64,000 nucleotides of DNA, taken from assembly GCF_000147715.2 (NCBI RefSeq), contig NC_017934.1, forward strand, positions 868,001 to 932,000, in the 5' to 3' direction. This DNA comes from Mesotoga prima MesG1.Ag.4.2. GTDB taxonomy: Bacteria > Thermotogota > Thermotogae > Petrotogales > Kosmotogaceae. The translations under genes were made by a program, and so were the position numbers. A model generated the notes under the pieces. It made no database searches and was not told where the DNA came from. It saw only the letters and a program-made list of their open reading frames with translations. Every line of letters starts with the position of its first letter. The stretch's first letter is position 1. Positions 24,715 through 49,368 of this stretch are shown one piece after another.

Positions 24715-24717
24715 TGG

Positions 24718-32458: not shown

Positions 32459-32822
32459 CTTTCGTGTTTGTCCTCTCCCTTTCGATCTTCTCCAGCAACT
32501 GAGCTACTCTCAAGCTTGCTTCTATTCCAATGTCTTCTTTAAAACGGATTTCAGGGGCTTTGAACAGACGAATGTTCTTTGCAATTGCAGTCCTGAAGAT
32601 TCCCTTATCTTCATTCAGCCTTTTAACCAGCTTTTTCTTGCTTTCATCTGGTCCCATAAGACTTACAAAGACCGTTGCAAAACGCTTATCTTTGGTAAGT
32701 TCTACCCTGACTATTGAAACCATTCCTAGCGAGTCGTTGTAACTTGTGTAAGATGATAGAGTTACCGTGAGAACCTTCTTTATCTCAGACTCCAACATCT
32801 CTTTCCTGTAACTACTTGCCAT
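32451..32822 (-). CDS. rbfA: ribosome-binding factor A
   Basis: 123-aa KH-like protein for 30S maturation. Starts MASSYRKEMLESEIKKVLTV; VRVELTKDKRFATVFVSLMG and LFKAPEIRFKEDIGIEASLRVAQLLEKIE fit the family. I take ATG 32822, as the GTG at 32831 lies within the GGAGGTG ribosome site. infB, often upstream, is absent; hairpin repeats start just beyond. Confidence 0.94.
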   Translation of the reverse strand: MASSYRKEMLESEIKKVLTVTLSSYTSYNDSLGMVSIVRVELTKDKRFATVFVSLMGPDESKKKLVKRLNEDKGIFRTAIAKNIRLFKAPEIRFKEDIGIEASLRVAQLLEKIERERTNTKDE

Positions 32823-32970
32823 GGCTCTCACCTCCGGGATAATTATAACCTACAAAGCGAAGATGGGAATATGCCAGAATGAAAATGAATGCAACGGCGC
32901 TTCGGCTGGAGGCCTTCTCGGGTCCACCGTCAACGGTTCGCCGTTCTCAGAGAAGAGCATATAAGAAATT

Positions 32971-33256
32971 CGACGCAATGCCGGCGAAGATCGCGCCGGG
33001 ACGCAAGAGGCACTGAGGAGCATCAGTGGACGCAAGGCTGGCTTCGTCGGGAAGTGATGCGCCGAAAAACATCGGCGGAAGTGATGCCCGGAAAGTCATC
33101 CGGGGAAGTGATGCTCGCTTGCGCGAGGAAGAAAGAAATATCAGACTCAATACGCCGAAAAGCATTGGCGGTCGCACGCCGACGAAGAACATGTCGGGAC
33201 GCAATGCACTGAGGAGCATCAGTGGACGCAAGGCCGACTTCGTCGGGAAGTGATGC
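32971..33256. repeat. mosaic hairpin-repeat array, copy B (about ten hairpins)
   Basis: Ten short hairpins in 286 bases with a period near 27: for example CGCCGA-AAAACA-TCGGCG (33060-33077), CCCGGA-AAGTCA-TCCGGG (33087-33104), CTCGC-TTGC-GCGAG (33114-33127), and CACTGA-GGAGCA-TCAGTG twice (33011-33028, 33207-33224). Linkers are ACGCAA or AAGTGATGC. Stem sequences vary while pairing is kept; the six-base loops end in CA. Every frame is open by composition, so open frames here are not genes. Confidence 0.85.
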
Positions 33257-33283
33257 CCTTATAGAACGAGTATGTAAAGAAGA

Positions 33284-34580
33284 TTGTGTAAACCCTCTAG
33301 AATGGAAGAGAAGATTGGAGGGAAAAGAAGATGAAATTTGACAGAGAAAAGATCAAGTCGTTAATCGAGAAGAATGGATTTGAAAACGTTGGAGATGTTC
33401 AAGAGGCAATGAAGGAATTGTTTGGTGACGTAATCAAAGAAATGCTTGAAGGAGAACTGGAAGATGAGCTTGGATATTCGAAGCATGACTACAAGAACAA
33501 AGAGACTGACAATTCCAGGAATGGACATAGCAAGAAGACAGTTAGGAGCGATTACGGAGAAATAGAACTTGAGATACCAAGAGACAGGAAAGGTGAATTT
33601 GAACCGGTTGTTGTGAAGAAACACCAGAGGGACATTTCTGGTATAGAGGATCAGATAATCTCCATGTATGCAAGGGGAATGACAGTAAGAGATATTCAGA
33701 GTCATATAGAGGATATCTACGGTTCCAGATTGTCTGCAGAGAGCGTAAGCAGGATAACGGACAAGATACTGCCACTGGTCTCCGAATGGAGAAACAGACC
33801 ATTAGAATCTGCGTATGCGATAGTCTACATGGATGCCGTATTCTTCAGGGTCGTTGAAAGCAACCAGGTAAGGAAGAAAGCACTCTATATAGCCTTAGGA
33901 GTATCCCTAAATGGCCACAAAGACATTCTAGGCATGTGGATAAGTGAAACAGAAGGAGCAAGCTACTGGCTAAGCATTCTCAACGAATTGAAGAATCGCG
34001 GGGTTGAAGACGTGGCAATCTTCTCAATAGATGCATTAAGCGGAATGGAAGAAGCCATAGAGGCTGTATATCCATTCTCAGAGGTTCAGAAGTGCATAGT
34101 TCACCAGATAAGAAACACCATGAGATATGTTACCTGGAGGGATCGTAGACCTCTAGCACGCGATCTCAAGACAATTTATCAGGCACCTACAAGAGAGGCA
34201 GGATGGAATGCATTGCTTGCACTAGAAGAGAAGTGGGGCGACAAATACCACTTGTCAATAAAAAGCTGGAAAGATAACTGGGAAACTCTCTCAACCTTCT
34301 TTCAATATCCAGAGGAACTGAGAAGATTGGTTTATACAACTAATCCCATTGAATCAGTTAATAGACAACTCAGGAAGGTGACGAAGAACAAAGGAGTCTT
34401 TCCAACAGACAATTCTCTCTTAAAGATGGCTTATCTAGCAATAATGAACATAACAAAGAAATGGACAGTAAGAACTCTTGATTGGTCCAGGATCCTTACT
34501 CAACTTGTGATAAAGTATGAAAGATTAGCTAAGTACATAAGCTGATTCTTAAACCCATTACAAAAAAGGGGTTTACACAA
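33284..34580 (+). mobile_element. IS256-family insertion sequence, about 1.3 kb
   Basis: Ends carry inverted repeats: TTGTGTAAACCCT at 33284 and AGGGGTTTACACAA ending at 34580. A single transposase gene fills it. No exact 8-9 bp target duplication is visible at the flanks, so it may be old or flanked by later change. Confidence 0.85.
33331..34545 (+). CDS. IS256-family (mutator) transposase
   Basis: 404 aa, full length. ELEDELGYSKHDYKNKETDNSRNG, RNGHSKKTV, EIPRDRKGEFEPVVVKKHQ, ISMYARGMTVRDIQ and the catalytic DDE region (YMDAVFFRV; FSIDALSGM; TTNPIESVNRQLRK with the Glu) are all present. RBS GGAGGG upstream. No frame damage seen, so probably active. Confidence 0.95.
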   Translation: MKFDREKIKSLIEKNGFENVGDVQEAMKELFGDVIKEMLEGELEDELGYSKHDYKNKETDNSRNGHSKKTVRSDYGEIELEIPRDRKGEFEPVVVKKHQRDISGIEDQIISMYARGMTVRDIQSHIEDIYGSRLSAESVSRITDKILPLVSEWRNRPLESAYAIVYMDAVFFRVVESNQVRKKALYIALGVSLNGHKDILGMWISETEGASYWLSILNELKNRGVEDVAIFSIDALSGMEEAIEAVYPFSEVQKCIVHQIRNTMRYVTWRDRRPLARDLKTIYQAPTREAGWNALLALEEKWGDKYHLSIKSWKDNWETLSTFFQYPEELRRLVYTTNPIESVNRQLRKVTKNKGVFPTDNSLLKMAYLAIMNITKKWTVRTLDWSRILTQLVIKYERLAKYIS

Positions 34581-34605
34581 AAAAAGAGACAGAACCTATA
34601 GAACA

Positions 34606-34703
34606 TTAGACGCAGTGCCGCATGCGGCAGGAAGCTATTAGAAAGCCAGTCGCACTTCGTGCTGCCAGTTCCGCCTCACGGGATGATAACCTTACTCCCT
34701 TGA
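34606..34703. repeat. hairpin-repeat fragment between the two IS elements
   Basis: GACGCAGTGCCGCATGCGGCAGGAAG and neighbouring small palindromes reuse the GACGCA/GGAAG linker style of the main arrays in a reduced, partly degraded form. Confidence 0.5.
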
Positions 34704-34955
34704 GGTCATCCTGGCACGCTTCTGGCCAGGATCTAAATCTCTGAAACAGTTGCAAGTTGTTGGAATTGAAAAAACCAGATCCCGTATAAGAGCGCTACGG
34801 GATGACAATGTCAGACGATTATACGATTCTTTTGTAGGGGCGAACGGCTGTTCGCCCGAAAGAGGTCTTGGTTGGAATCTCTGCCATTTACGCGAAAAAT
34901 GGGACCATAAGGAAGTCGCAATGGGCCGGAAGGCATCAGTGGACGCAAGGCTGGC
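34704..34955 (+). repeat. direct repeat, about 252 bp, first copy
   Basis: Almost identical to 35122-35372 (one A-run difference and a handful of substitutions). Contains paired palindromes such as ATCCCGTA...TACGGGAT and GGGGCGAACGGCTGTTCGCCC. Non-coding. Confidence 0.9.
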
Positions 34956-35155
34956 GAAGAACACGCCAGGCGGGTAAAAACTAAAATTCCTTACAAGAGT
35001 AAGACGTGATGGCAGTCATCTATGTCATCCCGGCACATCTGCCAGGATTTAGATCCTTGGATCGCTTTCAAGACTAGATCCCGATCAGTTGCATATCGGG
35101 ATGACGGTCTTTTTTACTTCGGGTCACCCTGGCACGCTTCTGGCCAGGATCTAAA
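34945..35155 (+). repeat. about 210-bp dispersed repeat, copy 2
   Basis: Matches 22627-22839 on the same strand (for example TTGCATATCGGGATGACGGT in both). It bridges the two copies of the 252-bp direct repeat, so the two families are nested. Confidence 0.85.
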
Positions 35156-35372
35156 TCTCTGAAACAGTTGCAAGTTGTTGGAATTGAAAAACCAGATCCC
35201 GTATAAGAGCGCTACGGGATGACAATGTCAGACGATTATACGATTCTTTTGTAGGGGCGAACGGCTGTTCGCCTGAAAGAGGTCTTGGTTGGAATCTCTG
35301 CCATTTACGCGAAAAATGGGACCATAGGGAAGTCGCAATGGGCCGGAAGGCATCAGTGGACGCAAGGCTGGC
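35122..35372 (+). repeat. direct repeat, about 251 bp, second copy
   Basis: Second copy of 34704-34955, displaced by 417-418 bases. It is followed by hairpin units (GGCTGGCCAAGATCATGCCAGG; ATGCCCGCTTCGCGGGGGAA) at 35364-35412. Confidence 0.9.
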
Positions 35373-35488
35373 CAAGATCATGCCAGGACGCAATGCCCGC
35401 TTCGCGGGGGAAGGGCAGATGAACGCCGCTAAAAAACCACGTTATCCGTCAACGGTCCTCCGTTGTTTGTTAGAATAAGAGAGGCAGG

Positions 35489-35557
35489 GGATGCAAGATA
35501 AGTCCAGTCCTTCGTTATAGCCTGCGAGGCCCAGTGGGGCAAGAACATCTTGCATCC
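35489..35557 (+). ncRNA. candidate bridge RNA core of the IS110 element
   Basis: An 11-bp perfect stem GGATGCAAGAT (35489-35499) / ATCTTGCATCC (35547-35557) encloses an internal hairpin-rich loop (GCCTGCGAGGC...). It lies in the leader upstream of the transposase, where IS110-group elements encode their bridge RNA. A further imperfect stem (CAGGAG...) follows to about 35610. Assignment by position and shape only. Confidence 0.5.
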
Positions 35558-35668
35558 AGGAGTGTTCAGGAACGATAGTAGAATATCCGGAGCAGGAATG
35601 CTTCAGGACCAAAACAGCGGTAAACGAAACACTCAACAAACTGCCAAACAAGCAACGGAGGTGCAGTT

Positions 35669-36895
35669 ATGGAGATAGTTGGAATTGATTGGGGAAGAAA
35701 GAAGCATTACTGTTATCTTTTGCACCAGGGTAAGAAGTTAGTTTTAAGGAACAAGGAAGAAGATTTCGCGAAGCTTCTGAAGATAAAGGAGGCGGTCTAT
35801 GTTATTGAGGATGGCAATAACAGGATCGTCGATTATCTTCTAAGGAACAACAGGCAGGTGTACATACTTCCAAGCAGGAGATCGAGCGAAGCCAGGTCAT
35901 TCTTCGTGATAGAAGGCAAGAGCGATTTCATTGATTCGAAGGTAATAGCGATGACCTATGAGCATAACCCCGAATGGTGTTTGCAAGTGAAGAGGGAAGG
36001 GATAGCTTTTGAGCTGGATGTACTGGTTGAAGAGAACGCTGTGATAAATGTATCTATGATGCAGGATATAGGAAGGCTGGATGCATACCTTGAAAGGTAC
36101 TGGCCGGAGGTGAAAGAAGTTTTCAGTGGCACTTCCGCCAGAAAACTGGCGTTTATATCCATCTGTCCTACTGCAAAAGACTTTCTCTCAATGTCTGATA
36201 AAGAGATACTCCTGAAGCTTAAAGAGATGGGTTTCCTGATAAATAGCAATCTCAAAAGCAAGCTGAAGGAGCTCAGAAAAATCGCGCTTGAAAGATATGT
36301 GCCAGCTTCCATAAGGACATTGATAGTCGCTTTCTCAAGGTACGCTATGGAGAAGAAAGTGATGAAGGAAGAGATAGGCAAGCAGATGAAAGAAATCATT
36401 GAGAAAAGCGAATTCAGTGTGCTTCTCACCTTACCTGGAGTGGGAGTAATAATCGCCAGCCAGCTCATAGTTGCCTACCTAACACACAAGTTCAGTTCCT
36501 ACAGAGACCTTCAAAGGTACGCGGGAACTACTCCGACTTACTATGGAAGCGGTAACAAGAATACCACCAAGATGAGAAGTAACTGCAATCACTATCTCAG
36601 AGGGACTCTTCATATAGCCAGTCTTGCTGCAACAAATAGCTCTAAATGGATGAAAAGATTCTACGACAACAAAAAGAGCGAGGGCAAGAGCTCTGCTCAT
36701 GCCCTCCGTGCATTGGCGAACACCATCCTCAAAATCGCCTTCGCCATGCTTAGGGATTTGACTCCCTACTCAGAAGAGAAATTCTTCAAGAGGAATCCTC
36801 TTTCTGATTATACTCCTTCTAAAAAGGAGGGAAAACAGAAGCCTGAATACTCGCTGAAAGTATCTTCAGTAGCTACCTGCCGGTCTACTGCTTGA
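35669..36895 (+). CDS. IS110-family transposase (DEDD recombinase)
   Basis: 408 aa: RuvC-like N-terminal domain (VGIDWGRKKHYCYL; YVIEDGNN; KSDFIDSKVIA with the DEDD acids) and C-terminal Tnp domain (LLTLPGVGVIIASQLIVAYL; SYRDLQRYAGTTPTYYGSG; KMRSNCNHYLRGTLHIASLA) with the expected Ser. GGAGGTG before ATG 35669. Intact. Confidence 0.93.
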   Translation: MEIVGIDWGRKKHYCYLLHQGKKLVLRNKEEDFAKLLKIKEAVYVIEDGNNRIVDYLLRNNRQVYILPSRRSSEARSFFVIEGKSDFIDSKVIAMTYEHNPEWCLQVKREGIAFELDVLVEENAVINVSMMQDIGRLDAYLERYWPEVKEVFSGTSARKLAFISICPTAKDFLSMSDKEILLKLKEMGFLINSNLKSKLKELRKIALERYVPASIRTLIVAFSRYAMEKKVMKEEIGKQMKEIIEKSEFSVLLTLPGVGVIIASQLIVAYLTHKFSSYRDLQRYAGTTPTYYGSGNKNTTKMRSNCNHYLRGTLHIASLAATNSSKWMKRFYDNKKSEGKSSAHALRALANTILKIAFAMLRDLTPYSEEKFFKRNPLSDYTPSKKEGKQKPEYSLKVSSVATCRSTA

Positions 36896-37568
36896 TCCTT
36901 TCAGTCTGCCTTTTTTATAACTGTTGACATAGTAGAAGCCCTCCGAAAAAGAAGAAGAAGAACTAGAGCAGAAGTGATGGCCGGAAAGTCATCCGGGGAA
37001 GTGATGCTGCCTTCGGCAGGAGGGTCAAGACCCAGGGATTCTGTTTAGCTATAGTATTGCTTCTGACCAGCATCTCGCTCCTGGCTTTGATTCCGGTCCG
37101 GTCTGACCAAGAACGAAGAACAGTTCCTCATTCTGGAACGAATAACAGGTTCTCCTTGGAGAAAGAATAACCGTTCAACTATGGACCAGTTCTTTTGCTA
37201 TTCCTACCACGAATCTGCGACCCCCAACCCCGGTCTTTCCCATTTTTAACCCTGCCAATTTGTGTCGGGAATTTCCGATAGTCTTCTTTCAACTGCTAAA
37301 GTGCCCTCTAATAAATGTTTATAGAACAGAGTATTTCTTCAAAGAAAATTCAAGTGTTCCCCTGAACTTAGGAGTAAATGTACCCTTTGAAGGCGAAAAA
37401 CAACCCTATACTTGTTTCAGGAAGATAAGTAACGGTCATTCAGAAGAGGTCCATATTTATCATAAAGGGGCCCAGACCCGAGGAAAAAGGTAGAGGGGGG
37501 CCAATGGCCCCCCTTGTATCTGAGAGTGAATTTTTACTGATTGAAGTTTCTAGAGCGAGGTGGACTGA
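36896..37568. other. 673-base gap with repeat remnant and strong hairpin
   Basis: 36963-37030 holds two more hairpin units (GAAGTGATGGCCGGAAAGTC..., GCTGCCTTCGGCAGG). 37495-37513 is a GC-only hairpin GGGGGGCC-AAT-GGCCCCCC, 56 bases before the first propeller gene, perhaps an insulating terminator. A 77-codon frame (37260-37493) lacks a ribosome site. Confidence 0.55.
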
Positions 37569-38600
37569 ATGAAGAGAGTTGTCGTTACAGCAGATTCTCA
37601 CTTTCCATCGAAGAGCGATTGCGGCTTTGCACTGATAGACGTCAGCAATCCCCTTGAACCGGTGGTTCTAAGCAGAAGCAAGCTTCCCGATCATTGCGGG
37701 AGTTTCGCGAGCAGTAACGGCTTCCTCTATTGCACTCTTCCAGGCAGTTTCATGATCTTTGACATTTCTGACCCATTTGCGCCCAGATTGCTTTCAAGGC
37801 TCGCGGCAAACGGCGGCTGTCAGATAGTGATCTCGGAAAGAAGGAAGAAAGCCTTTCTTGCCGATTGGAAGAACGGTGTCTTAATAATCGACATAAATGA
37901 TCCCTATGAGCCAAGAATGATTGGAAGAATGGGGTGTAACGGAGATGAAAGAAACAATGGAGAAATTCACCCCTATGGCGTCTCCGGTCTTGCAGTGCAT
38001 AATGGGCTTCTCTTCGCCTCTACTATGGATTACGACATGCTCCAGAACAGAGAGGCTCTTTACGTTTTTGATATTTCGAGACCGCGCAGCCCAAAGTGGA
38101 TCGCTAGAGTGAATACTTACCCATGTCGTGGCCACGGCATAGTACTGAAAAGGAATTACGTTGTCATAGTAGGCCTGAGAAGTACGATGGTTATCGATAT
38201 CTCGAGGCCTGAAGAACCTGCAACTATCTCTTTGATAGAAACTCCCGACCGTTTTGGTATGAACCCCTGGCTTTCAGGTGATTATCTGTACGTTCCCGAA
38301 ATAGTATATGAGCCCAACAAGAAGCTTGCAGGATTGAGGATACTCGACATTTCAAATCCTCTTCACGTAGAGAGTATTAGTGAGCTTCTGATTCCCGCAA
38401 GAGCGGCCACTAACGTCAAAGTTGTGGATAATCTCGCGTATCTCTCCTGCCAATGCGGCCTGGCGATAGTCGATGTAGCCGATCCCGAGAAACCTAAGCT
38501 GCTTAATCTATGTACTCCTTGTGAAGTCGACAAAATCGCGGAAGGCATCGAGGTAATTGACTATCGGGATGAAGTGTTTAAAGAAGAAAGGGTTTCTTAG
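37569..38600 (+). CDS. LVIVD-repeat beta-propeller protein, paralog 1
   Basis: 343 aa with no signal peptide. About seven repeats of 45-50 aa of the LVIVD kind (FALIDVSNPLEPVVLSRS, FMIFDISDPFAPRLLSR, VLIIDINDPYEPRMIGR, LYVFDISRPRSPKWIAR, TMVIDISRPEEP, LRILDISNPLHVESI, LAIVDVADPEKPKLL), so a seven-bladed propeller is likely. Shared by the paralogs: HPYGVSGLAV after the third repeat, the STMDYDMLQNREALYVFD loop and CRGHGIVL. GAGGTGG upstream. Function unknown; these folds usually bind partners. Confidence 0.8.
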   Translation: MKRVVVTADSHFPSKSDCGFALIDVSNPLEPVVLSRSKLPDHCGSFASSNGFLYCTLPGSFMIFDISDPFAPRLLSRLAANGGCQIVISERRKKAFLADWKNGVLIIDINDPYEPRMIGRMGCNGDERNNGEIHPYGVSGLAVHNGLLFASTMDYDMLQNREALYVFDISRPRSPKWIARVNTYPCRGHGIVLKRNYVVIVGLRSTMVIDISRPEEPATISLIETPDRFGMNPWLSGDYLYVPEIVYEPNKKLAGLRILDISNPLHVESISELLIPARAATNVKVVDNLAYLSCQCGLAIVDVADPEKPKLLNLCTPCEVDKIAEGIEVIDYRDEVFKEERVS

Positions 38601-38642
38601 CCCATAAATCACGTTTCGAACCGATTATAGGAGGTGTTTGGT

Positions 38643-39056
38643 ATGAAAAAGGTAGCGATTCTTCTTGTAAGCCTTGTACTGTTGTGCTCAGTCAGTGTTT
38701 TGGCTAGCACGGAAACAAGGACTATTTTCGAAGGCGGCGCCGGTCCCGAAATGCTCGCAGAAAGATCTGCAGTCAACAATTACCGCGCTTCTCAGATCTT
38801 TGCCGTATACATCCACACGTCAGGAGGAGATGTTCAAGTCGCAGTTAACGGAAATTGCAGCGACTTCTGCAGTTGTGCATCTAGATGTTTGCTCTGGCAA
38901 GAAGTATGTAGGACGGCAATAGAGAGAGGCCTTTCGCTTTCAACAAGTGATAGGGTAATTGTCTTCTACATCGAAAAAGGTGTGGAGAAGGTTGCGGTAC
39001 TGGCCGCAAATGAGTGGGATTTCACGCATGATTATGGAACTACTATTGAAGCCTGA
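38643..39056 (+). CDS. small exported Cys-containing protein, family A member 1
   Basis: 137 aa; signal peptide MKKVAILLVSLVLLCSVSVLA. Start ATG 38643 set by AGGAGGTG. The mature part has AVYIHTSGGDVQVAVNGNC, a Cys cluster (CSDFCSCASRCLLWQEVC) and DRVIVFYIEKGVEKVAVLAANEWDF. It matches the next gene at HT(S/A)GGD, LLW(Q/K)EVC and DKVIVF..., so they are paralogs. No known family. Likely periplasmic with disulfides or a bound metal. Confidence 0.75.
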   Translation: MKKVAILLVSLVLLCSVSVLASTETRTIFEGGAGPEMLAERSAVNNYRASQIFAVYIHTSGGDVQVAVNGNCSDFCSCASRCLLWQEVCRTAIERGLSLSTSDRVIVFYIEKGVEKVAVLAANEWDFTHDYGTTIEA

Positions 39057-39156
39057 TTATCTCGTACTATTCAGATGACTCTCAATGGTTTTGGAAAAGT
39101 GTGTTGTTAATGATTCGATTAATCAATCAATTCATTTCTGAAGGAGGTGCAAAAGA

Positions 39157-39522
39157 ATGAGAAAGACTTTCATAATGATCTTTTTGCTGATAACGATATT
39201 TGCATCACTGGCAATTGCTAGATACGATCTCGATGGAACTGTGACAGTAACGCAAGTGTACGTCCACACAGCCGGGGGTGACTACAAACTGGACATCTCG
39301 GAAATCTGCCTGAATCTCTTCAGCAGAATAGGGATCGAAGTTCTGTGGAAGGAGGTTTGTCTGGGAGCAGAAAAGTACGGCTGCGTTCTCTGCCCCTTCG
39401 ATAAGGTAATAGTCTTCTTCAAAGACGAAACCGGTCTGGAAAGCGCGGCAGTTGTCGCCGCGGATAAAGACAGATTTGCTCAAGAGTTTTTGAACGGCGT
39501 TCCCACTTATCTTACACTGTGA
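39157..39522 (+). CDS. small exported Cys-containing protein, family A member 2
   Basis: 121 aa; signal peptide MRKTFIMIFLLITIFASLAIA. QVYVHTAGGDYKLDISEICLN, VLWKEVCLGAEKYGCVLCPFDKVIVFF and SAAVVAADKDRF parallel the preceding protein. Four Cys after the signal. AAGGAGGTG before the ATG. A terminator follows, so the propeller gene and this pair form one plus-strand group. Confidence 0.75.
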   Translation: MRKTFIMIFLLITIFASLAIARYDLDGTVTVTQVYVHTAGGDYKLDISEICLNLFSRIGIEVLWKEVCLGAEKYGCVLCPFDKVIVFFKDETGLESAAVVAADKDRFAQEFLNGVPTYLTL

Positions 39523-39576
39523 TACAAGTCTCGATAAAAAGAGTACAAAACCCTTTTCCCTTCTAACTAGAGGATC

Positions 39577-39601
39577 GGCCCGCATAGCGGGCCATTTTTT
39601 T
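39577..39601 (+). terminator. terminator after the small exported protein pair
   Basis: Stem GGCCCGC / GCGGGCC, loop ATA, then ATTTTTTT. Confidence 0.92.
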
Positions 39602-39700
39602 GATCAATGTTGGGCGAGAGACTGTTTTGGGATAGATGAAATAGATCCTTGTTAAGTATAATAATGCTGGATCAGGACCGATCAGAGAAGAGGTGCTCCG

Positions 39701-40714
39701 GTGATGAAAAGAGTCCTTGTTGTTAGCGAAAGCAATTTCCCGAAGGGAACCAAGTTCAGACTCAGTTTCATCGATGCGACTGACCCGTTCCGGTTGTCTT
39801 CGATATTTGAAATGGAGACTCATAGCTTAGTTGTATCCTTGGCATACAAAGACGGATTGATCTACTGCTCGATGTCCAAGGGTTTCTCAATATACGATGT
39901 CTCCGACCTGAATTCTGTGAAAGAGATCTCACATATTGACCTGTTTGGTGGAATCGATATGGAGCTTTCATCTGGCGGCGATTACGCTTATCTGACTTCC
40001 TGGAAGAGAGGAATCACTATCGTCGACATTCATGATCCGTATAATCCATCTTTGATCGGTAGGGCGTCGTGCAACTACCAGGTCTTGCCTGACGACGACA
40101 GTCCGTACGGACCATATGGGGTTGCAGGAATTGTGGTACGAGGAAGATACGCTTTCTGCGTGACCTGCGACTATACGGACGACAAACACAGAGAGGTCTT
40201 CATTGTTTACGATATAGCAGATCCATCAAACCCTCAGCAGAAGGTAATGATCAGCACCGCTCCCTGGAGAAGCCATGGAATGGTTGCTCAAGGAGACATT
40301 GCTTATGCCTCGGGTTTTGAAAGCATACTTGTTTTCGACATTTCAGAGCCGCTCGATCCCGTTCTCATCAACAGACATGAACAAAAGGCGAGAATGTGCT
40401 GCAACTCGGTTATCCGGGGAAACCTGCTTTACAATGCGGGGTCGGACTACGCTCCGGAAGGCTCTGCCGGGGTACTGTCGATTTTTGACATCACCAATCC
40501 CCTTCATATAAGGGAGATTGGAGAAACGCCGACAATAGGGCGTGTCAGCTGGAACTTGGCATTAGTGAAGGATCTTGTATATGTCGTAAGCGACGGTACT
40601 ATTTCGGTAGTAGAAATCGCTAACCCCGAGAAACCTGCCGTTAGAAGTCTTTGTGGGCCCTCGGGAGCAGACATGGTCTATGATGCCATTGAGATCATAG
40701 ACTTTTCTGCTTGA
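39701..40714 (+). CDS. LVIVD-repeat beta-propeller protein, paralog 2
   Basis: 337 aa, no signal peptide. FRLSFIDATDPFRLSSIFEM, FSIYDVSDLNSVKEISH, ITIVDIHDPYNPSLIGR, VFIVYDIADPSNPQQKV, ILVFDISEPLDPVLI, LSIFDITNPLHIREIG and ISVVEIANPEKPAVR give seven repeats. Conserved YGPYGVAGIVV, TCDYTDDKHREVF and RSHGMVA positions match paralog 1. Start 39701 or 39704 (ATGATG). Confidence 0.8.
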   Translation: MMKRVLVVSESNFPKGTKFRLSFIDATDPFRLSSIFEMETHSLVVSLAYKDGLIYCSMSKGFSIYDVSDLNSVKEISHIDLFGGIDMELSSGGDYAYLTSWKRGITIVDIHDPYNPSLIGRASCNYQVLPDDDSPYGPYGVAGIVVRGRYAFCVTCDYTDDKHREVFIVYDIADPSNPQQKVMISTAPWRSHGMVAQGDIAYASGFESILVFDISEPLDPVLINRHEQKARMCCNSVIRGNLLYNAGSDYAPEGSAGVLSIFDITNPLHIREIGETPTIGRVSWNLALVKDLVYVVSDGTISVVEIANPEKPAVRSLCGPSGADMVYDAIEIIDFSA

Positions 40715-40738
40715 GATCGATGAGAGGCGGGAGAGATC

Positions 40739-41737
40739 ATGAGAGACTTCGCGATTTCCATGGATTCTGATCCTGATGAGAGAGGTGACTGCGTCTTCAT
40801 GGTGGTCGATATTACTCGTAATCAGACACCGGCGCTTGTTGGCAGGACACCATGTCAAGGTTTTTACAGAGACCTGTTCGGAATCGGCAATTATCTCGTC
40901 TGTTCAGGAAATTCCGAAGTCGATATCTATAATGCAGCAATGCTGCCGGAAGTAAGTCTTATCTCTCATTTCAAGGGGTTCGGAGGGAAGAAGATCGCTC
41001 CGGATGTACACAGAGATCTCATATTCGTTCTAAACGAAGTTCAGGGTGTTGGGGTCATAAGCATAGCGGAACGAGAAGAGCCGAAGTTGCTCGGTCACAT
41101 CTACCCGGGAAATCTTTCGGAAGATCTATTAATGACGGATATCGCCTTGCTCGACAACCATCTTCTGTTGCTTGTTAATGATTTGAGCACTTCATCTCAC
41201 CGTGAATGCCTGCTGATTTACGACGTCATTTCGCCCGAGAATCCGCAAATGAAAGAAAAAGTAAGTATTGCCCCCTGCAAGGGCAACGTTCTTGCGATAA
41301 AGGGTGAGAGACTGTATATCTCTGGATTCAACAATCTTATGATCAGGAACGTCAATGACATTAATGAAAGCGGACGTTCGGCACTTGTGGAAAGGGATGG
41401 GACCAGGGGAGTTGGATTGATTGTCTACGGAGACTTAGCTTATCTTGTCGAGCATGAATGGGCTCTTAGGTCGACAACGGCCTTTCTCAATGTTGTCGAT
41501 CTGAGGGTATCAGATGAACCAAAGTTCATGGGAAAGACTCTTCTGACGATCAACTTTCTTTCCGATTATACGGACGTCTCGATGAGAAAGATCGGGGAGA
41601 GACTCATCCTCGTCTCGAGTTTCGGGCTGCGGGTCATCGACGTTAGCGATCCCGCTAATCCGGATATTACCCATCTGTTCCGCCCCTCCGACAGTTCCAG
41701 AATTGCTTCCGGACTGGAGATACTCACGGTTGATTGA
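40739..41737 (+). CDS. LVIVD-repeat beta-propeller protein, paralog 3 (divergent)
   Basis: 332 aa. Repeats are weaker (FMVVDITRNQTPALVGR, VGVISIAEREEPKLLGH, LLIYDVISPENPQMKEK, LRVIDVSDPANPDITHL), and the GPYG and HGM sites are lost (KGNVLA instead), but NDLSTSSHRECLLIYD keeps the shared loop. It lacks the usual MKR-V-V start. It ends 5 bases from the convergent next paralog, with no terminator between. Confidence 0.75.
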   Translation: MRDFAISMDSDPDERGDCVFMVVDITRNQTPALVGRTPCQGFYRDLFGIGNYLVCSGNSEVDIYNAAMLPEVSLISHFKGFGGKKIAPDVHRDLIFVLNEVQGVGVISIAEREEPKLLGHIYPGNLSEDLLMTDIALLDNHLLLLVNDLSTSSHRECLLIYDVISPENPQMKEKVSIAPCKGNVLAIKGERLYISGFNNLMIRNVNDINESGRSALVERDGTRGVGLIVYGDLAYLVEHEWALRSTTAFLNVVDLRVSDEPKFMGKTLLTINFLSDYTDVSMRKIGERLILVSSFGLRVIDVSDPANPDITHLFRPSDSSRIASGLEILTVD

Positions 41738-41742
41738 GATTA

Positions 41743-42744
41743 TTAGATATCATAGATGTGTATTCCCGAGTTCCATTTGCCTTCAGGAGCGTTTCGAGCG
41801 GAAAGCAGTCTCGGCGATTCCGGTCTGCCGATATCTACAATCGCCACGCCCGAGTCACAGACGACATAGGCTATCTCATTGTCGATCGTTATGCTGTCCC
41901 CGAAGAAACTCAACGGCAAGACAATTTCTCCAATGAGTCGAGGGTGCAGAGGGTTAGAGATATCTACTACGTCAAGAATTCCGTTGTGTTCGACGGAGCT
42001 GTGAATAACACCAACTGCAAAGAGAAAGTCATCTGCTAGCCTCGCGCTCACTAAAAAGTGATTTCCAGTCTTCAGCTCTCCAACAGTCATGGGGTCTTCA
42101 GGAATAGAGATGTCGAATGATAGAACCCCGTGCGCACCGACGGCGAAGACATAGTTGCCTTTCGAATCCATCCCGTGCGCTCTGAAGTCCGGAGTCGGAA
42201 TTTTCGTGACTTTCTTTGGATTTGAAGGATCTGAAACATCGTACATGTACAAAGCTCCCAGGTTTCTCGACGTGACATAATCCATGGTAGCTCCAAACAG
42301 GAAATTGCCTCTGAGACAAAGGCCGCTTGACATACCATATGGTCCATCATTTCCAACGGGATGAAGATCGACGCAGTCACAATCGGCGCTTCCCAGTGGA
42401 ATCGGGTCGTCCCTTTTTGAGACATCCAGGATTGCAATTCCCCGCCTCCAGTTAGATAGGTAGAGCAGCTCCTTCATTTTATCAAAAAGAATGTATCCTC
42501 CACAATATCCTTCTATTCTTTTCAGCATTCTTATGTTCTCGATATCTGTGATGTCGAAGACCTCGAAGAACTCTCTTTCAAGGCAATAGAGTCTTCCCGA
42601 ATCTACTAGGAAGGCCATACAGTTTCCCGAAGCTTTAGCCCTCGCGATTACGGATATCTTCGCCGGGTCAGATACATCTGCCAAGATGAATGACGAACCG
42701 GTATTCCAGCCAGATAGATTCTCACCGAAAACAAGGCATTTCAA
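41743..42744 (-). CDS. LVIVD-repeat beta-propeller protein, paralog 4
   Basis: 333 aa, no signal. MKCLVFGENLSGWNTGSSFILADVSDPAKI start, then FEVFDITDIENIRMLKR, IAILDVSKRDDPIPLGS, GPYGMSSGLCL, GALYMYDVSDPSNPKKV, RAHGMD, LSFDISIPEDPMTVGE, LDVVDISNPLHPRLIG and VAIVDIGRPESPRLL. GGAGGAGG lies before the ATG. 242 bases separate it from the propeller gene upstream, which may hold its own promoter. Confidence 0.8.
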   Translation of the reverse strand: MKCLVFGENLSGWNTGSSFILADVSDPAKISVIARAKASGNCMAFLVDSGRLYCLEREFFEVFDITDIENIRMLKRIEGYCGGYILFDKMKELLYLSNWRRGIAILDVSKRDDPIPLGSADCDCVDLHPVGNDGPYGMSSGLCLRGNFLFGATMDYVTSRNLGALYMYDVSDPSNPKKVTKIPTPDFRAHGMDSKGNYVFAVGAHGVLSFDISIPEDPMTVGELKTGNHFLVSARLADDFLFAVGVIHSSVEHNGILDVVDISNPLHPRLIGEIVLPLSFFGDSITIDNEIAYVVCDSGVAIVDIGRPESPRLLSARNAPEGKWNSGIHIYDI

Positions 42745-42986
42745 AGAAATTCCTCCTCCTTGATCGCGGGATCACAACACGAAAACCCAGTTCTCTTCAA
42801 GATCAGAGGAAAGCTATCTTCACCCGCAAAGTGCGTCTTATATACCAGTCTTCACCTAACAGTGCCTCTGTCTCATAATCAACTCTTGGAAAGGGATTTA
42901 GTTCAAGAAAATCATTTCATAAGGCGTAGAACAGGCCCAAAATCGCGAACCCGCTTCAAGAAATACAGGAGATATTTATAATTTCT

Positions 42987-44060
42987 TCAGTCTACTTCTA
43001 CTATTGCCGCGCCTATGTACTCCTTTGTCTGATCCAGTTCATCAAAAAGAGCTAAAACCGCAGGGTTGTTTACATCTTTAACGTCCACAGTCGCGACACC
43101 GTTAGAGCAGGCCAGATAGGCGATATCTTTATCCACGAGAAGTCCAAAGCCCTCTCCCGTGTCTATACGGGTCTCGCTCAAAAGACGAGGATGGATCGGG
43201 TTTGAAACGTCGATTACCTGAAAGAATCCATTCTGAGACCTGTCGCTCGAGAGGAGCGGCTTTGAAGACAATTTGCTGTCAGCCTTTGCAGAACTCTCTT
43301 CTTCGGCGAATTCAAGTATTCTTCCCGAGATTAGGAGTCGATTCCTGTAATCTCGGGCGAAAACGCCGAATCTCCCTTCAAGCGGCAGTTCTCCAATCGT
43401 GAGAGGCTCCTCAGGAGATGATATGTCTATTGAGAGAATTCCGCATGCACCCACTGCGAACAAGTGGCTTCCTGCTATTGCCATTCCATGACCCTTAACG
43501 GGGGTCGTGCTCAATCTGGCAGCCTTCCTGATATTTTCGAAATCGCTTACGTCGTAGACATACAGCGCTTCCCTCTCTTTTGTAGCCACATAATCCATGG
43601 CGACCCCAAAGACATAGTGTCCCCTCTTCACTATCTGAGAAATCCCGTATGGGCCGATACCAGCACCTGGTTCAACCGAGATATCACAATCACATGACCC
43701 TAGCAGAACCGGCGAAGTCGGGTTCTTGACATCAATTACGCTTATTCCATGCTGATAGCTTGAAAGGTACAGGCGCTTTTCCGACACTTCATACTGTGTT
43801 GTGTTGCCTGGATGGTTTCCCTCAAACATGGATACTCTGGAGATTTTTGGAAGGCTCGAAACGTCGAAGATTTCCAGGTGGCCAATTTCACTGCAGAAGA
43901 GAAGCCCGTTATGAGAAGCGAATGAAACGGTCGTACCCAGAGTCCTTATTCGATCTACGAAGGATATCTTGCGTGGATCGGTAACATCGAGAACGACGAA
44001 GGCCGGATCGGACGGTTCTATGGGGAGCTCGCTTTCCGAAGTGATCATGAACCTTTTCAC
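42987..44060 (-). CDS. LVIVD-repeat beta-propeller protein, paralog 5
   Basis: 357 aa from GTG 44060 (MKRFMITSESELP, as in the paralogs). FVVLDVTDPRKISFVDR, LEIFDVSSLPKISRVS, ISVIDVKNPTSPVLLGS, GPYGISQIV, EALYVYDVSDFENIRKA, KGHGMAI, LSIDISSPEEPLTIGE, FQVIDVSNPIHPRLLSE and VATVDVKDVNNPAVLAL. An insert rich in Ser (EEESSAKADSKLSSKPLLSS) is unique to this copy. Its start overlaps the stop of the 55-aa ORF (GTGA). Confidence 0.8.
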   Translation of the reverse strand: MKRFMITSESELPIEPSDPAFVVLDVTDPRKISFVDRIRTLGTTVSFASHNGLLFCSEIGHLEIFDVSSLPKISRVSMFEGNHPGNTTQYEVSEKRLYLSSYQHGISVIDVKNPTSPVLLGSCDCDISVEPGAGIGPYGISQIVKRGHYVFGVAMDYVATKEREALYVYDVSDFENIRKAARLSTTPVKGHGMAIAGSHLFAVGACGILSIDISSPEEPLTIGELPLEGRFGVFARDYRNRLLISGRILEFAEEESSAKADSKLSSKPLLSSDRSQNGFFQVIDVSNPIHPRLLSETRIDTGEGFGLLVDKDIAYLACSNGVATVDVKDVNNPAVLALFDELDQTKEYIGAAIVEVD

Positions 44061-44224
44061 AGACAATCACGCTCCTTCCAAAGAGCCAGGAGTGACTTCG
44101 AAACTTCATGTGTTAGCGGCAGTCTCTGAATGAGTTTTCGATTCAGCTCCTGTGCACCGAACAGAAGTGAACTCTTCTCGTTGAATGAGCCACTTTCAAC
44201 CTCGAAATCCACTACAATGCACAT
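44057..44224 (-). CDS. 55-aa protein coupled between MocR regulator and propeller gene
   Basis: Starts at ATG 44224, whose A is the last base of the upstream stop (TGATG), and ends with a TGA inside the GTGA of the next start. Sequence begins MCIVVDFEVESGSFNEKSS, ends ALWKERDCL; a helical C-terminal half (QELNRKLIQRLPLTHEVSKS) and two Cys. No family known. The double overlap argues strongly for real, coupled translation. Confidence 0.6.
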   Translation of the reverse strand: MCIVVDFEVESGSFNEKSSLLFGAQELNRKLIQRLPLTHEVSKSLLALWKERDCL

Positions 44225-45744
44225 CACCAGCTTGTGTATTCGAACTTCGTGACTGAGCCGAACTCGTGCTTTCTGTACCTCTCAACTGTCTTTCCTATTT
44301 CTATCAGCGCCGGTTCTATGTACTCTTCCTTAACATACAGTCCCAGTCTGAAGAAGTTGTACCCTTTTTCGTCATTGAAGAACCAGTTTCCCGGCGCAAT
44401 CTCTATGTTCTTTCTGTTGAGATTCCTTCTTATGTCGCGCACATCAAAGCCCTTCGGAAGCTCTACCCACCAGCTTGTTCCCGAATCACAGATATTGGCT
44501 TTGGCATATGACGGCAGATATCTGTTACAGGCATGGATTAACAATTCTCGTCTTTTTGTAAGTTTCTCATGGACGAAGGAAAGATGGTGATCGTAAAACT
44601 CGGAGTTGAGTATCTCATTCGTCACCAGCTGAAGTAATCCTGCGACATCTCTCTCCATGACTCTCATTGAACTCCATAATATGTCCAAAGCTTTATCCGG
44701 GCCTACTATCCAGCCTGTTGTGACTCCAGCTCCAAAGGTTTTCACTATGTCATGTATTTCGAAAACAACGTTATCTTCCTCAAAGTGGCGCATTGGAAAG
44801 GGAGTCTTTCCCGTGTACTGAAACTCGGAGCCGCCGGTCAAGTCGTCGACAATCGGAACTCTGTAACTTGCGGCAAGCCTTACAAGTTCCTGTTTCTTCC
44901 TGTCAGGCATGGTCGTACCCATCGGTTCACCCGCAGTTGACTGCAAATAGATAAGTTTCACCGAATTCTTTCTGAGAACATCTTCAAGTTGGTTTAGATC
45001 GATTCCTTCGATACTTCTTCTAACGGGAATTACCTTCAGATGAAGGGTCTTCAGAATTCCGAGCACGTTCATATTTGTGGGGTTTTCAATCACAACTGCT
45101 TCTCCCTGTCTGGTGAAGGCTTTGAAGATCAAATGCTCCGATTCGACGTTTCTGCCGCTTACGATAACATTTTCCGGCTTCAGGCTCTCCCCATTACATC
45201 CGAGTCTCATACATATTGCCTTTCGAAGATCACGCAATCCTTTTGGATGCTCCACATAGTTAACCGTCTCCATGAAGATGTCGCTTTTCATCGCTCTTTG
45301 TGTGAGGGCCTTAAGGAGCTGATGTGGGATCAGTTCATCGTCCGGCGATTCGTTATGAAAAATCACCAGGAGACCGAGCGTCGCAATTTCACTCGTCGGT
45401 GATCTCTTCTTGAACTGATGAGTATGTCTGTACCAGGTATCCAGGTGTTTGCACCAGTCGATGGGTCCGGTGTCGGCTCCCTTCTCTTTTTTGGCGCGAA
45501 TATATGTACCGCTGCCCACTTCTCGGTAGACAAGATCATCCACGTAGAGTTCGTTCATAGCTTTCAAGACAACATTCTTGCTTACGCCGAGAAGCTGTTC
45601 GATTTCTCTAACAGAAGGTAACTTAGAGCCGTCGGGATATTCACCTGAAAGGATTTTCTTTCTTAGCCTTTCGATTAACTGCAAATATAACGGAACCGTG
45701 CTGTCCTTATCCAGCTGAAAGTCGATTCTGAACACCTGTCTCAC
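44224..45744 (-). CDS. MocR-type GntR transcription regulator with aminotransferase domain
   Basis: 506 aa. N-terminal winged helix (PLYLQLIERLRKKILSGEYPDGSKLPSVREIEQLLGVSKNVVLKAMNEL, about 15-80) and a fold-type I aminotransferase domain (about 120-495): NVIVSGRNVESEHLIF, YLQSTAGEPMGTTMP, VDDLTGGSEFQYTG, and HDIVKTFGAGVTTGWIVGP with the expected PLP Lys. MocR proteins usually sense PLP or an amino compound. It probably controls this cluster. Its gene is the first of a three-gene overlapping chain. Confidence 0.88.
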   Translation of the reverse strand: MRQVFRIDFQLDKDSTVPLYLQLIERLRKKILSGEYPDGSKLPSVREIEQLLGVSKNVVLKAMNELYVDDLVYREVGSGTYIRAKKEKGADTGPIDWCKHLDTWYRHTHQFKKRSPTSEIATLGLLVIFHNESPDDELIPHQLLKALTQRAMKSDIFMETVNYVEHPKGLRDLRKAICMRLGCNGESLKPENVIVSGRNVESEHLIFKAFTRQGEAVVIENPTNMNVLGILKTLHLKVIPVRRSIEGIDLNQLEDVLRKNSVKLIYLQSTAGEPMGTTMPDRKKQELVRLAASYRVPIVDDLTGGSEFQYTGKTPFPMRHFEEDNVVFEIHDIVKTFGAGVTTGWIVGPDKALDILWSSMRVMERDVAGLLQLVTNEILNSEFYDHHLSFVHEKLTKRRELLIHACNRYLPSYAKANICDSGTSWWVELPKGFDVRDIRRNLNRKNIEIAPGNWFFNDEKGYNFFRLGLYVKEEYIEPALIEIGKTVERYRKHEFGSVTKFEYTSW

Positions 45745-45800: not shown

Positions 45801-45905
45801 TCATCTTGGTTTACCGGAGACTTCTGCGACATAATAATCTTGCGCTCTCGAAAACACACAGCAGAAGGAAAGCACAACGATGAAGGCCGTTGATACGCGC
45901 TTCAC
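45801..45905 (-). pseudogene. signal-peptide stub of a third peptide-binding protein
   Basis: GTG 45905 begins a 34-codon frame MKRVSTAFIVVLSFCCVFSRA ... VAEVSGKP then R and stop. It matches the first 33 residues of the next gene nearly base for base, including the ribosome-site region and 60 bases upstream that encode the end of a binding protein (compare 45900-45950 with 47632-47690). So a third tandem copy was lost by deletion, most simply by unequal recombination. Confidence 0.85.
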
Positions 45906-45919
45906 TTCTGCATCTCCCA

Positions 45920-47635
45920 TCACTCTCTCCAGACATCCCATGGTCTCCAGGGCAGTTCGAACATCGATCCATATTTCCATGGCCCATGATGGATGCTATT
46001 GTCGTACGCATAGAGAAGAAGTTGTGTAGCCGTAAAGACGATCGGCAAATGTTGGGCCATCACCAACTGGAATTCGGAGAACAATTGGCATCTCTCTTCC
46101 AGTTCAATAACGGATTTTTGCGCTTCCAAGATCTCATCTATTCTCTTCTGCCAATCGGGATAAAAATAGGTCTCCTCGGTTATGTGATCGCTTAGATTGT
46201 AATCTGGATGATAATTCCAGTAATGTCTCACCCCTCTTGAATGGTAGACCATTGTAAGGAGCCCCGGTTCAGCGCCTCCCTCTGCGAGAGTCATTGAGTC
46301 GAATGTTCCAGAATGGGCTTTGGTAACATATGTGTCCCAGTCCATGAATGCAGTAGTTGCGTTGATTCCAATATTTGAAAGTTGATCTGAGAGAACTGTG
46401 ACGATTCCCACCCACTGGCTGTTCCAAGAACACGTTAGTATCTGGAAACTCACCGGATTCCCAAACTCGTCGATACAGGTTCCGTCGCTCCTCCAGTCGA
46501 AGCCGCCACGCTTTAGCTCAAGCCTTGCCCGGGTCGGCGAAAAGTCGTAATTGAACTCCTCCACCTTGGGATCGTAATAGATGCTCGATGAAGATAATGG
46601 CCCGTGAATAGAGGCGCCCAGTCCAGAAAAGATCGTGTTGAGAATCGATTCTCGATCCATCAAATAAGCTATCGCCTTCCTGAAGTGTTCGTTTCTGAAC
46701 CACTCGCGCTTCACCGGATCGGGAGCATTGAAGTTGAACATGAGGAACTCAGTCAGCGGTCTCGGCTGACCGGCCAAAACACTCCAGCCCTTTTCCTCGG
46801 CCATCGAGAGCACACGGGGGAACTGTTCAGCCGATGGATTATAGACATCAAGTTCGCCAGCCTCGAAACGAAGAAGAGCTTGCTCCATGCTCGTGGAGAC
46901 CTTGACAAAGATCTTATCTATATAGGGCAATCTGAAGCCCGAACTGTCAAATCTCCAATAATACGGGTTCTTCTCAAGTACTATCGTATCTCCCAGGTGA
47001 AACTGCTCAATGACGAAGGGTCCCATAACCACAACTTTCTCGGTTTCTCCAATATTCCAGGCAGACGGAAAAGTCCCATTTGCGACATACTCTTCGAGAG
47101 AATGCTTCGGTAGTATGGGAGTCAGACCGATAGTCCTTGGTGCGAGGGCGTTTGGCTCGCTCCATGTGAATGAGATCGTGTTGCCCTCCACTTCCACCAA
47201 TGGCAGATCACCTGCAGAGCTCATAAAAGTACTGTTTCCGAACAGAGTCATCTCCGCGACTAAATATATCTCTTCGAAAGTCCATCTCACGTCCTCAATA
47301 GTGAATGGTTGTCCATCTGACCACTGAAGGCCCTCACGAATGACAAAACTCAATGTACACCCGTCTTCCGAAATCCACCAATCCTTGCATAGAGCCGGAT
47401 GCTCCGGGAATCCAAATTCATTTTCATCCAAAAGCGACTCTACAATGAATTTAAGTATGTTTAGAGAAGCACCGTCATTTCCGAAAGCGGGATTCAGAGA
47501 TCTGGGATCCATTCCATCAACGCTCAGTGTCCCTCCCGGCTTGCCGGAGACTTCTGCGACATAATAATCTTGCGCTCTCGAAAACACACAGCAGAAGGAA
47601 AGCACGACGATGAAGGCCGTTGATATGCGCTTCAC
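45920..47635 (-). CDS. ABC transporter substrate-binding protein, family 5 (paralog 1)
   Basis: 571 aa from GTG 47635 (GGGAG upstream); longer frames start inside the neighbouring gene. Signal MKRISTAFIVVLSFCCVFS with cleavage after SRA; no lipobox. SBP_bac_5 landmarks: LSFVIREGLQWSDGQPFTIEDVRWTFEEI and AIAYLMDRESILNTIF, DWRSDGTCIDEFGNP. These proteins bind peptides or other solutes for Opp/Dpp-type ABC importers, but no permease is nearby. Very close to the next copy. Confidence 0.9.
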   Translation of the reverse strand: MKRISTAFIVVLSFCCVFSRAQDYYVAEVSGKPGGTLSVDGMDPRSLNPAFGNDGASLNILKFIVESLLDENEFGFPEHPALCKDWWISEDGCTLSFVIREGLQWSDGQPFTIEDVRWTFEEIYLVAEMTLFGNSTFMSSAGDLPLVEVEGNTISFTWSEPNALAPRTIGLTPILPKHSLEEYVANGTFPSAWNIGETEKVVVMGPFVIEQFHLGDTIVLEKNPYYWRFDSSGFRLPYIDKIFVKVSTSMEQALLRFEAGELDVYNPSAEQFPRVLSMAEEKGWSVLAGQPRPLTEFLMFNFNAPDPVKREWFRNEHFRKAIAYLMDRESILNTIFSGLGASIHGPLSSSSIYYDPKVEEFNYDFSPTRARLELKRGGFDWRSDGTCIDEFGNPVSFQILTCSWNSQWVGIVTVLSDQLSNIGINATTAFMDWDTYVTKAHSGTFDSMTLAEGGAEPGLLTMVYHSRGVRHYWNYHPDYNLSDHITEETYFYPDWQKRIDEILEAQKSVIELEERCQLFSEFQLVMAQHLPIVFTATQLLLYAYDNSIHHGPWKYGSMFELPWRPWDVWRE

Positions 47636-47649
47636 TTTAGCATCTCCCT

Positions 47650-49368
47650 TCACTCTCTCCAGACATCCCATGGTCGCCAGGGCATTCCAAGCATCGCCCC
47701 ATAGATCCACGGGCCATGATGTATATCGCTATCATATGCATAGAGCAGTAGCTGAGTTGTCATGAAAATCAAAGGCATGTGCTCAGCCATTATCAACTGG
47801 AATTCGGAGAACAATCGGCATCTCTCTTCCAGTTCAATAACGGATTTTTGCGCTTCCAAGATCTCATCTATTCTCTTCTGCCAATCGGGATAAAAATAGG
47901 TATCCTCAGTTATGTGATCGCTTGGATTGTAATCGGGATGGAAGTTCCAGTAATGACTCGTCCCCTTTGAATGGTAGACCGTTTCAAGGAGCCCCGGCTC
48001 AGCACTTCCTTCCCCCATTGTCATTGAATCAAATGTCCCTAAATAGGCTCTGGTAACAAATGAGTCCCAGTCCATGAATGCAGTAGTTGCGTTGATTCCA
48101 ATATTCGAAAGCTGATCTGAGAGTATCGTGACGATTCCGATCCACTGGCTGTTCCAAGAACACGTTAGTATCTGGAAACTCACCGGATTCCCATACTCGT
48201 CGATACAGGTTCCGTCGCTCCTCCAGTCGAAGCCGCCTCGTTTTAGCTCAAGCCTTGCCCGGGTCGGCGAGAAGTCGTAACTGAACTCCTCCACCTGGGG
48301 ATCGTAGTAAATACTGGATGAGGATACCGGACCGTGCAGTATGACTCCCAGACCACAGTAAACTGTATCCAGGACCGATTTTCGATCCATGGCGTAGGCT
48401 ATCGCCTTTCTGAAGTGTTCATTTCTGAACCACTCGCTTTTCACCGGATCGGGAACATTGAAGTTGAACATGAGGAACTCACTCAGCGGTCTCGGTTGAC
48501 CGGTGACAGCTTTCCAGCCCTTTTCCTCTGCCATTGAGAGAATTCTCGGAAACTGGTCGGCAGTTGGATTGATTATGTCGAGTTCGCCTGCTTCAAACCT
48601 TATGAGAACCTGTTCCATGTTTGTGGAAACCGTTATGAAGATTTTGTCGAGATAGGGTAATCTGAAGCCCGAGCTATCGAATTTCCAGTAATAAGGGTTC
48701 CTTTCAAGAACTATCATATCGCCTTGATAATACTTCCCAACAACGAATGGACCCATGACGACTACTTTCTCGAATTCACCGATATTCCATGCGGTAGAGA
48801 AAGTCCCTTCAGTTACGTTCTTTTCCAGGCAGTGTTTCGGGAGAATCGGAGTCAGACCGATAGTCCTCGGTGCAAGGGCATTTGGCTCGCTCCATGTGAA
48901 TGAGATCGTGTTGCCCTCCACTTCTACCAATGGCAGATCACCTGCAGAGCTCATGAAATTACTGTTTCCGAACAGAGTCATCTCCGCGACTAAATATATC
49001 TCTTCGAAAGTCCATCTCACGTCCTCAATAGTGAATGGTTGTCCATCTGACCACTGAAGGCCCTCACGAATGACAAAACTCAATGTAAATCCGTCTTCCG
49101 AAATCCACCAATCCTTGCATAGAGCCGGATGCTCCGGGAATCCAAATTCATTTTCATTCAGAAGCGACTCCGTAATCAGGTCGAGTGTAATTGCTGATCC
49201 CCCATCCATGCCAAACGCCGGATTTAGAGACAGTGGATCGGTGCCATCGATGCTCAGCGACCCTCCCGGCTTGCCGTTACAGTCGGCAATGAAGTAATCT
49301 GGTTCTGAGGCCAATCCTGCGACAAATAACATAGTAAGCATAGAAACGAGGATTAACGCTCTTTTCAT
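47650..49368 (-). CDS. ABC transporter substrate-binding protein, family 5 (paralog 2)
   Basis: 572 aa; signal MKRALILVSMLTMLFVAGLAS. Same domain as paralog 1; whole blocks are identical at DNA level (for example 46060-46160 against 47800-47890) while others differ, which suggests recent duplication with gene conversion. The ligand-contacting middle region differs in places (AIAYAMDRKSVLDTVYCGLG). GGGAGATGGG before the ATG. First gene of the minus-strand group. Confidence 0.9.
   Translation of the reverse strand: MKRALILVSMLTMLFVAGLASEPDYFIADCNGKPGGSLSIDGTDPLSLNPAFGMDGGSAITLDLITESLLNENEFGFPEHPALCKDWWISEDGFTLSFVIREGLQWSDGQPFTIEDVRWTFEEIYLVAEMTLFGNSNFMSSAGDLPLVEVEGNTISFTWSEPNALAPRTIGLTPILPKHCLEKNVTEGTFSTAWNIGEFEKVVVMGPFVVGKYYQGDMIVLERNPYYWKFDSSGFRLPYLDKIFITVSTNMEQVLIRFEAGELDIINPTADQFPRILSMAEEKGWKAVTGQPRPLSEFLMFNFNVPDPVKSEWFRNEHFRKAIAYAMDRKSVLDTVYCGLGVILHGPVSSSSIYYDPQVEEFSYDFSPTRARLELKRGGFDWRSDGTCIDEYGNPVSFQILTCSWNSQWIGIVTILSDQLSNIGINATTAFMDWDSFVTRAYLGTFDSMTMGEGSAEPGLLETVYHSKGTSHYWNFHPDYNPSDHITEDTYFYPDWQKRIDEILEAQKSVIELEERCRLFSEFQLIMAEHMPLIFMTTQLLLYAYDSDIHHGPWIYGAMLGMPWRPWDVWRE

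Follow-up and report, generated by a model that had tools for sequence, protein, structure and literature searches.

What is known of LVIVD repeat proteins (PF08309) concerns, to our knowledge, almost entirely exported proteins of the cell surface to which no function has been assigned. PMC2447325 describes named LVIVD proteins as cell-surface proteins. Other described systems that bear on the present locus are the choice-of-anchor B family (TIGR04312), a phosphotriesterase from Sphingobium sp. TCM1 with LVIVD-like blades, and the MocR subfamily of GntR regulators (YdcR, GabR), whose members combine a wHTH with an aminotransferase fold and a PLP lysine. The locus lies in a window of 64,000 nucleotides, bases 868001-932000 of contig 1 of Mesotoga prima MesG1.Ag.4.2 (genome G000), and all positions below are counted from the first base of this window. 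The central observation holds and goes beyond chance: LVIVD propellers that are cytosolic by sequence stand in tandem within a genus-restricted island.

Five paralogous LVIVD genes had been proposed in the preliminary description, and each corresponds to an open reading frame preceded by a ribosome-binding-site-like sequence: P1 (37569-38600, 343 aa), P2 (39701-40714, 337 aa, intact in the window) and P3 (40739-41737, 332 aa) on the plus strand, and P4 (41743-42744, 333 aa) and P5 (42987-44066, 359 aa) on the minus strand. A single profile retrieves all five in the genome with E-values of 4e-157 to 3e-136, the remaining matches in G000 being marginal. Pairwise identities range from 21 to 40%, and the paralogy of P1 with its sisters (33, 21, 33 and 31% identity to P2, P3, P4 and P5) supports the proposed tandem duplication. 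Judged by the whole-protein score against the curated gathering score of PF08309 (20.2 bits), P1 (87.4 bits), P2 (41.4), P4 (33.8) and P5 (35.7) lie above the threshold and the divergent P3 (14.9) lies below it, and P3 aligns end to end with the other four. In the tree, P4 and P5 group together and the branch of P3 is very long.

The neighbours listed earlier, namely two secreted proteins, peptide-binding proteins and a MocR regulator, are likewise present. The small proteins A (38634-39056, plus strand, 140 aa, with a Cys-rich NCSDFCSCASRC motif) and B (39157-39522, plus strand, 121 aa) are paralogues (33% identity) that both carry a signal peptide, and an intrinsic-terminator-like hairpin followed by T7 (39577-39593, plus strand) lies 3' of B and separates P1-A-B from P2-P3. 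A is predicted to form a small alpha/beta domain that has no significant Foldseek match and a best VIA Z of 4.7; as the model is only moderate in quality (pTM 0.59), a new fold is not claimed. In G008, a flavodoxin/4Fe-4S ferredoxin-like protein (L045:3236-4114, minus strand) takes the place of B between A and P2. The regulator (44224-45744, minus strand, 506 aa) has a GntR wHTH (PF00392, 60 bits) and a fold-type-I aminotransferase domain in which the conserved K335 aligns with the PLP lysine of E. coli YdcR, the features that define MocR proteins. Beyond it lie two family-5 extracellular solute-binding proteins, SBP1 (45920-47710, minus strand, the true start likely inside the open reading frame) and SBP2 (47650-49368, minus strand), which are products of a recent tandem duplication (window 45808-47837, 84% DNA identity over 300 nt and about 80% protein identity). 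The family is widespread in Mesotoga at 45-48% identity, and because family-5 proteins are abundant in the genus, the SBPs constitute weaker evidence of co-occurrence.

The locus is an accessory island between rbfA (32451-32831, minus strand) and an N-acetylmuramoyl-L-alanine amidase gene (50079-50771, plus strand), which are separated by about 17 kb in the window and by 182-184 bp at the empty site in G011, G006 and G009. A survey of 103 Thermotogota genomes, ten of them from Mesotoga, places the propellers, A/B and the orthologous MocR each in the same four genomes, all Mesotoga (G000, G007, G008 and G012), with the block kept in gene order; the 93 genomes of other genera lack it. Of the two outcomes that the preliminary description named as refuting, secreted propellers and neighbours not conserved beside them elsewhere, neither was observed, with 'elsewhere' covering other Mesotoga species only. 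G000, G012 and G007 share the arrangement P1-A-B-P2-P3 with convergent P4-P5-MocR-SBP after it. In G008, a metagenome assembly (7% contamination), the locus is divided between a contig that bears P1-A-P2-P3-P4 and a second that bears P4(start)-P5-MocR-SBP; B is missing, ABC-transporter genes flank the locus and the amidase gene lies elsewhere. In G010, a close relative (amidase 97% identical), the border holds a truncated SBP with unrelated genes next to it, a pattern that resembles a deletion; the SBP remnant matches parts of both SBP1 and SBP2, suggesting recombination between them. Outside Mesotoga, a scan of genome contigs with single proteins returned only a G008-like MAG, the corresponding scan of viral contigs returned nothing, and plasmids gave generic repeat matches only; because such scans depend on exact matches of short peptides or on local similarity, more distant cytosolic sets may still occur in other phyla.

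Between G000 and G007, P2-P5, A and B show a synonymous divergence of 0.24-0.67, lower than the 1.1-3.0 of P1, rbfA, truB and the amidase gene, and the G008 proteins are 96% (P4), 61% (P3) and 64% (P1) identical to those of the window. The low divergence and the disparity between P4 and P3 in G008 suggest an exchange of island genes between species, although the similarity of P4, which sits at a contig end of this metagenome assembly, could reflect a chimera. The left flank of the island holds an IS256/Mutator-family transposase (33331-34545, plus strand) and an IS110-family transposase (35669-36895, plus strand), and the left-border stretch of G007 measures about 1 kb against 4.3 kb in the window, too short for the IS256/Mutator transposase. 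Dispersed palindromic repeats (GGAAGTGATGC / CATCAGTGGACGCAAGGC) surround the insertion sequences at 32832-37060, a region that also contains a 200-nt duplication at 34770/35187 (98%). Elsewhere in the window, group II intron domains on the plus strand (22944-24791; Rfam RF01999 at 22944-23063 and RF00029 at 24716-24791) enclose broken-up open reading frames.

Upstream of P1 lies a conserved promoter-like element, R1 (37352-37412, plus strand; core AAGTGTTCCCCTGAACTTAGGAGTAAATGTACCC and, after a spacing of 21 nt, TATACT), with a 62-nt core of the form AAGTGTTCCC[AC]TNAACTTNGNNGNAAATGTACCC followed by TATACT. It is conserved in all four carriers, including G008 with its divergent P1, and 12 strong sites (46-70 bits, the next best scoring 15.5) occur in seven Mesotoga genomes and in no other Thermotogota genus of the survey. 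The genes behind R1 comprise the P1 unit in the four carriers, a secreted LVIVD protein in G012, and secreted DctP-type SBP genes in G007, G008, G010, G011, G012 and G013, and the copy of G000 is degraded. RNA folding of the P1 leaders does not outperform that of shuffled sequences (z 0.36 to 1.35) and Rfam has no match there, on which grounds a structured leader RNA was rejected; one DctP leader gives z -2.9. Since folding lends no support to structure at P1, Rfam is silent there and the reading frame of the core is not kept, R1 is treated as a DNA promoter or operator element, probably a promoter that includes a site for an activator. R1 is found in G010, G011 and G013, all without the window-type MocR (at 1e-30, G011 lacks any MocR match), so that MocR is not the sole reader of R1 and was rejected as its reader; no operator repeats common to the P1 side and the minus-strand arm were found. 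By the genes that it precedes, R1 appears to tie the propeller cluster to extracellular solute binding. The DctP-family secreted proteins near R1 (L116:5535-6920, minus strand, and L112, L115 and L114) have N-terminal (M)EARGFYREGEEE repeats before the solute-binding domain, and these repeats may be released as peptides; the corresponding protein of G000 is degraded.

The landmarks attributed to the propellers, GPYG, HGM and MDY..REA, are real, and seven residues (Y140, G141, D158, Y159, T187, H193 and G194 in P5 numbering) are invariant in all 15 sequences of P1, P2, P4 and P5. From propeller topology rather than coordinates, they would precede strand A in two successive blades and occupy a B-C loop, which probably puts them on a single face of two neighbouring blades near the channel. 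The earlier statement that P3 has lost its key sites is borne out, as P3 carries other residues in place of Y140, Y159, H193 and G194 in each of the four species and GPYG and HGM are gone; D158 is kept, and of the third landmark only a part (D..RE). The dN/dS ratios between G000 and G007 range from 0.05 to 0.25 across P1-P5, with the strongest purifying selection of the five on P1 (about 0.05, near the values of rbfA, truB and the amidase gene). The ratio for P3 is about 0.2 between these two genomes and about 0.17-0.31 overall, an indication that it is still under purifying selection despite the loss of most of the invariant set. In G012 the P2 gene contains two in-frame stops, and in G008 it is split and also has a stop; its breakage in two of four carriers marks it as dispensable or redundant.

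The reading that we favour, tentatively and at less than even odds, is that the locus is an accessory island, specific to Mesotoga, that captures an extracellular solute and handles it inside the cell, with P3 as a non-binding partner. This reading draws on the joint occurrence of the propellers, A/B, a MocR with its PLP lysine and duplicated family-5 SBPs, on the fixed gene order, on a pocket identical in 15 of 15 sequences yet changed in P3, and on purifying dN/dS, the MocR lysine and the presence of R1 before SBP genes. The solute would probably be peptide-derived or amino-containing; the SBPs, and perhaps A/B, would act outside the cell, and MocR might sense an amino-containing ligand and control the minus-strand arm. 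The P1-A-B transcription unit would be driven by R1, which elsewhere in the genus also precedes genes for secreted DctP-type SBPs and for secreted LVIVD proteins. P1, P2, P4 and P5 could serve as cytosolic ligand-binding or processing propellers with a putative top-face pocket formed by Y140-G141, D158-Y159, T187 and H193-G194, and P3, its pocket lost and selection retained, may function as a structural or regulatory partner that does not bind. Against this reading, no enzyme motif, ligand or partner was identified for the propellers, and no permease stands beside the SBPs among the listed open reading frames, the SBPs lying on the opposite arm from P1.

The persistence of five paralogues side by side in fixed order, one of them selected without the pocket, would also fit propellers that act as interaction scaffolds in a hetero-oligomeric cytosolic assembly, with ligand binding secondary and P3 as one subunit. 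Propellers are classic interaction platforms and the top Foldseek rows for P5 include peptide-binding WD40 and kelch domains; the broken P2, however, makes an obligate five-subunit complex unlikely, and invariant polar and aromatic residues that share a face of neighbouring blades would be expected rather of a small-molecule site; the scaffold is somewhat unlikely. The same components could make up an as yet undescribed solute- or peptide-sensing system, in which the SBPs and A/B act outside, the cytosolic LVIVD proteins are a small family of diverged receptors accompanied by P3 as a pseudo-receptor, a PLP-dependent MocR provides the output and R1 defines a genus-specific regulon, an arrangement that we regard as unlikely. 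Whatever their role, the island, with its cytosolic paralogues, pocket-less sister, regulator and promoter element, offers a testable setting for the function of the LVIVD family, and R1 defines a small regulon in Mesotoga, a poorly studied mesophilic genus of Thermotogota.

The fold of the propellers bears on whether they are enzymes of the cytosol that convert an imported compound, as hydrolases, lactonases or isomerases would. P5 was the propeller modelled, by AlphaFold2 with its sister sequences included, and the fold of P1-P4 follows from alignment; the model (pLDDT 84.7, pTM 0.85) is all-beta with 26 strands and, as the preliminary description had anticipated, a seven-bladed propeller, matching known seven-bladed propellers in VIA-align with Z 30-32, rmsd 2.4-3.3 and 280-316 residues aligned. 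Among the rows tied within 1 Z are 6-phosphogluconolactonases, the muconate-lactonizing enzyme and an archaeal YVTN surface-layer domain, so that no function can be read from the fold. The lactonase and muconate-lactonizing neighbours, the conserved H, D and Y on one face, and the Sphingobium phosphotriesterase as the sole sequence relative of solved structure (E 1e-5) favour an enzyme, but propeller folds are common to proteins of every function, the phosphotriesterase match covers the generic blade consensus, and no set of metal ligands was identified. Profile comparison with E. coli Pgl is non-significant (probability 3.6%), and lactonase kinship by profile was rejected; an enzymatic role is on balance distinctly doubtful.

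Inspection of P1-P5 reveals no hydrophobic N-terminus, signal peptide or lipobox, and each protein starts directly at its first strand, in agreement with the earlier claim that all five are cytosolic. Every complete Thermotogota LVIVD protein with a readable N-terminus (one locus is cut off), including a further one in G012 (G012:C26), has a hydrophobic signal or lipobox, and the contrast with these exported relatives is consistent with a cytosolic location of P1-P5. The exported relatives, the surface location of named LVIVD proteins (PMC2447325) and the secretion of A and B from the same unit as P1 could nevertheless point to export without a cleavable signal peptide and a role at the surface. 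This is very unlikely, as the ribosome-binding-site-like sequences fix the starts, no export signal is seen, and the signal peptides of A/B indicate that the P1 unit uses Sec where export is wanted. A cassette for defence or conflict between bacteria, in which A/B would be the secreted effectors and the propellers would confer immunity or act as sensors in the cytosol, would suit the sporadic occurrence, the insertion sequences at one border, the more than one genomic location and the small secreted proteins beside cytosolic paralogues, but is the most improbable reading, given that PADLOC has no match save a marginal one of the MocR HTH to Csa3 (E 0.0065), that no relatives were found in phages beyond weak matches to one PHROG of unknown function, and that A and B are not hypervariable (dN/dS about 0.2-0.25).

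Compared with known systems, the propellers share the blade consensus and propeller fold of the LVIVD repeat proteins, four of the five exceeding the Pfam cut-off, and differ from them in lacking a signal peptide or anchor, in their size of about 335 aa without another domain, in their number of five per locus, and in the score of P3 below the cut-off. Four of the five show weak profile similarity (26-30 bits) to the choice-of-anchor B family, the best score of 29.9 bits being far under the 100-bit cut-off of TIGR04312, and none has export or anchoring signals; for the 56-kDa selenium-binding protein / methanethiol oxidase family (PF05694), the best score is 16.9 bits against a cut-off of 34. 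The Sphingobium sp. TCM1 haloalkylphosphorus hydrolase / phosphotriesterase (5hrm), the only PDB sequence match, is larger (504-591 residues), and the match is restricted to the generic blade motif, with equivalent metal ligands not identified. The window MocR has the wHTH, aminotransferase fold and PLP lysine of YdcR and GabR but misses all the NCBIfam equivalog cut-offs shown, its best score being that for PdxR (197 of 320 bits), and it adjoins propeller genes in place of a PLP, GABA or ectoine pathway.
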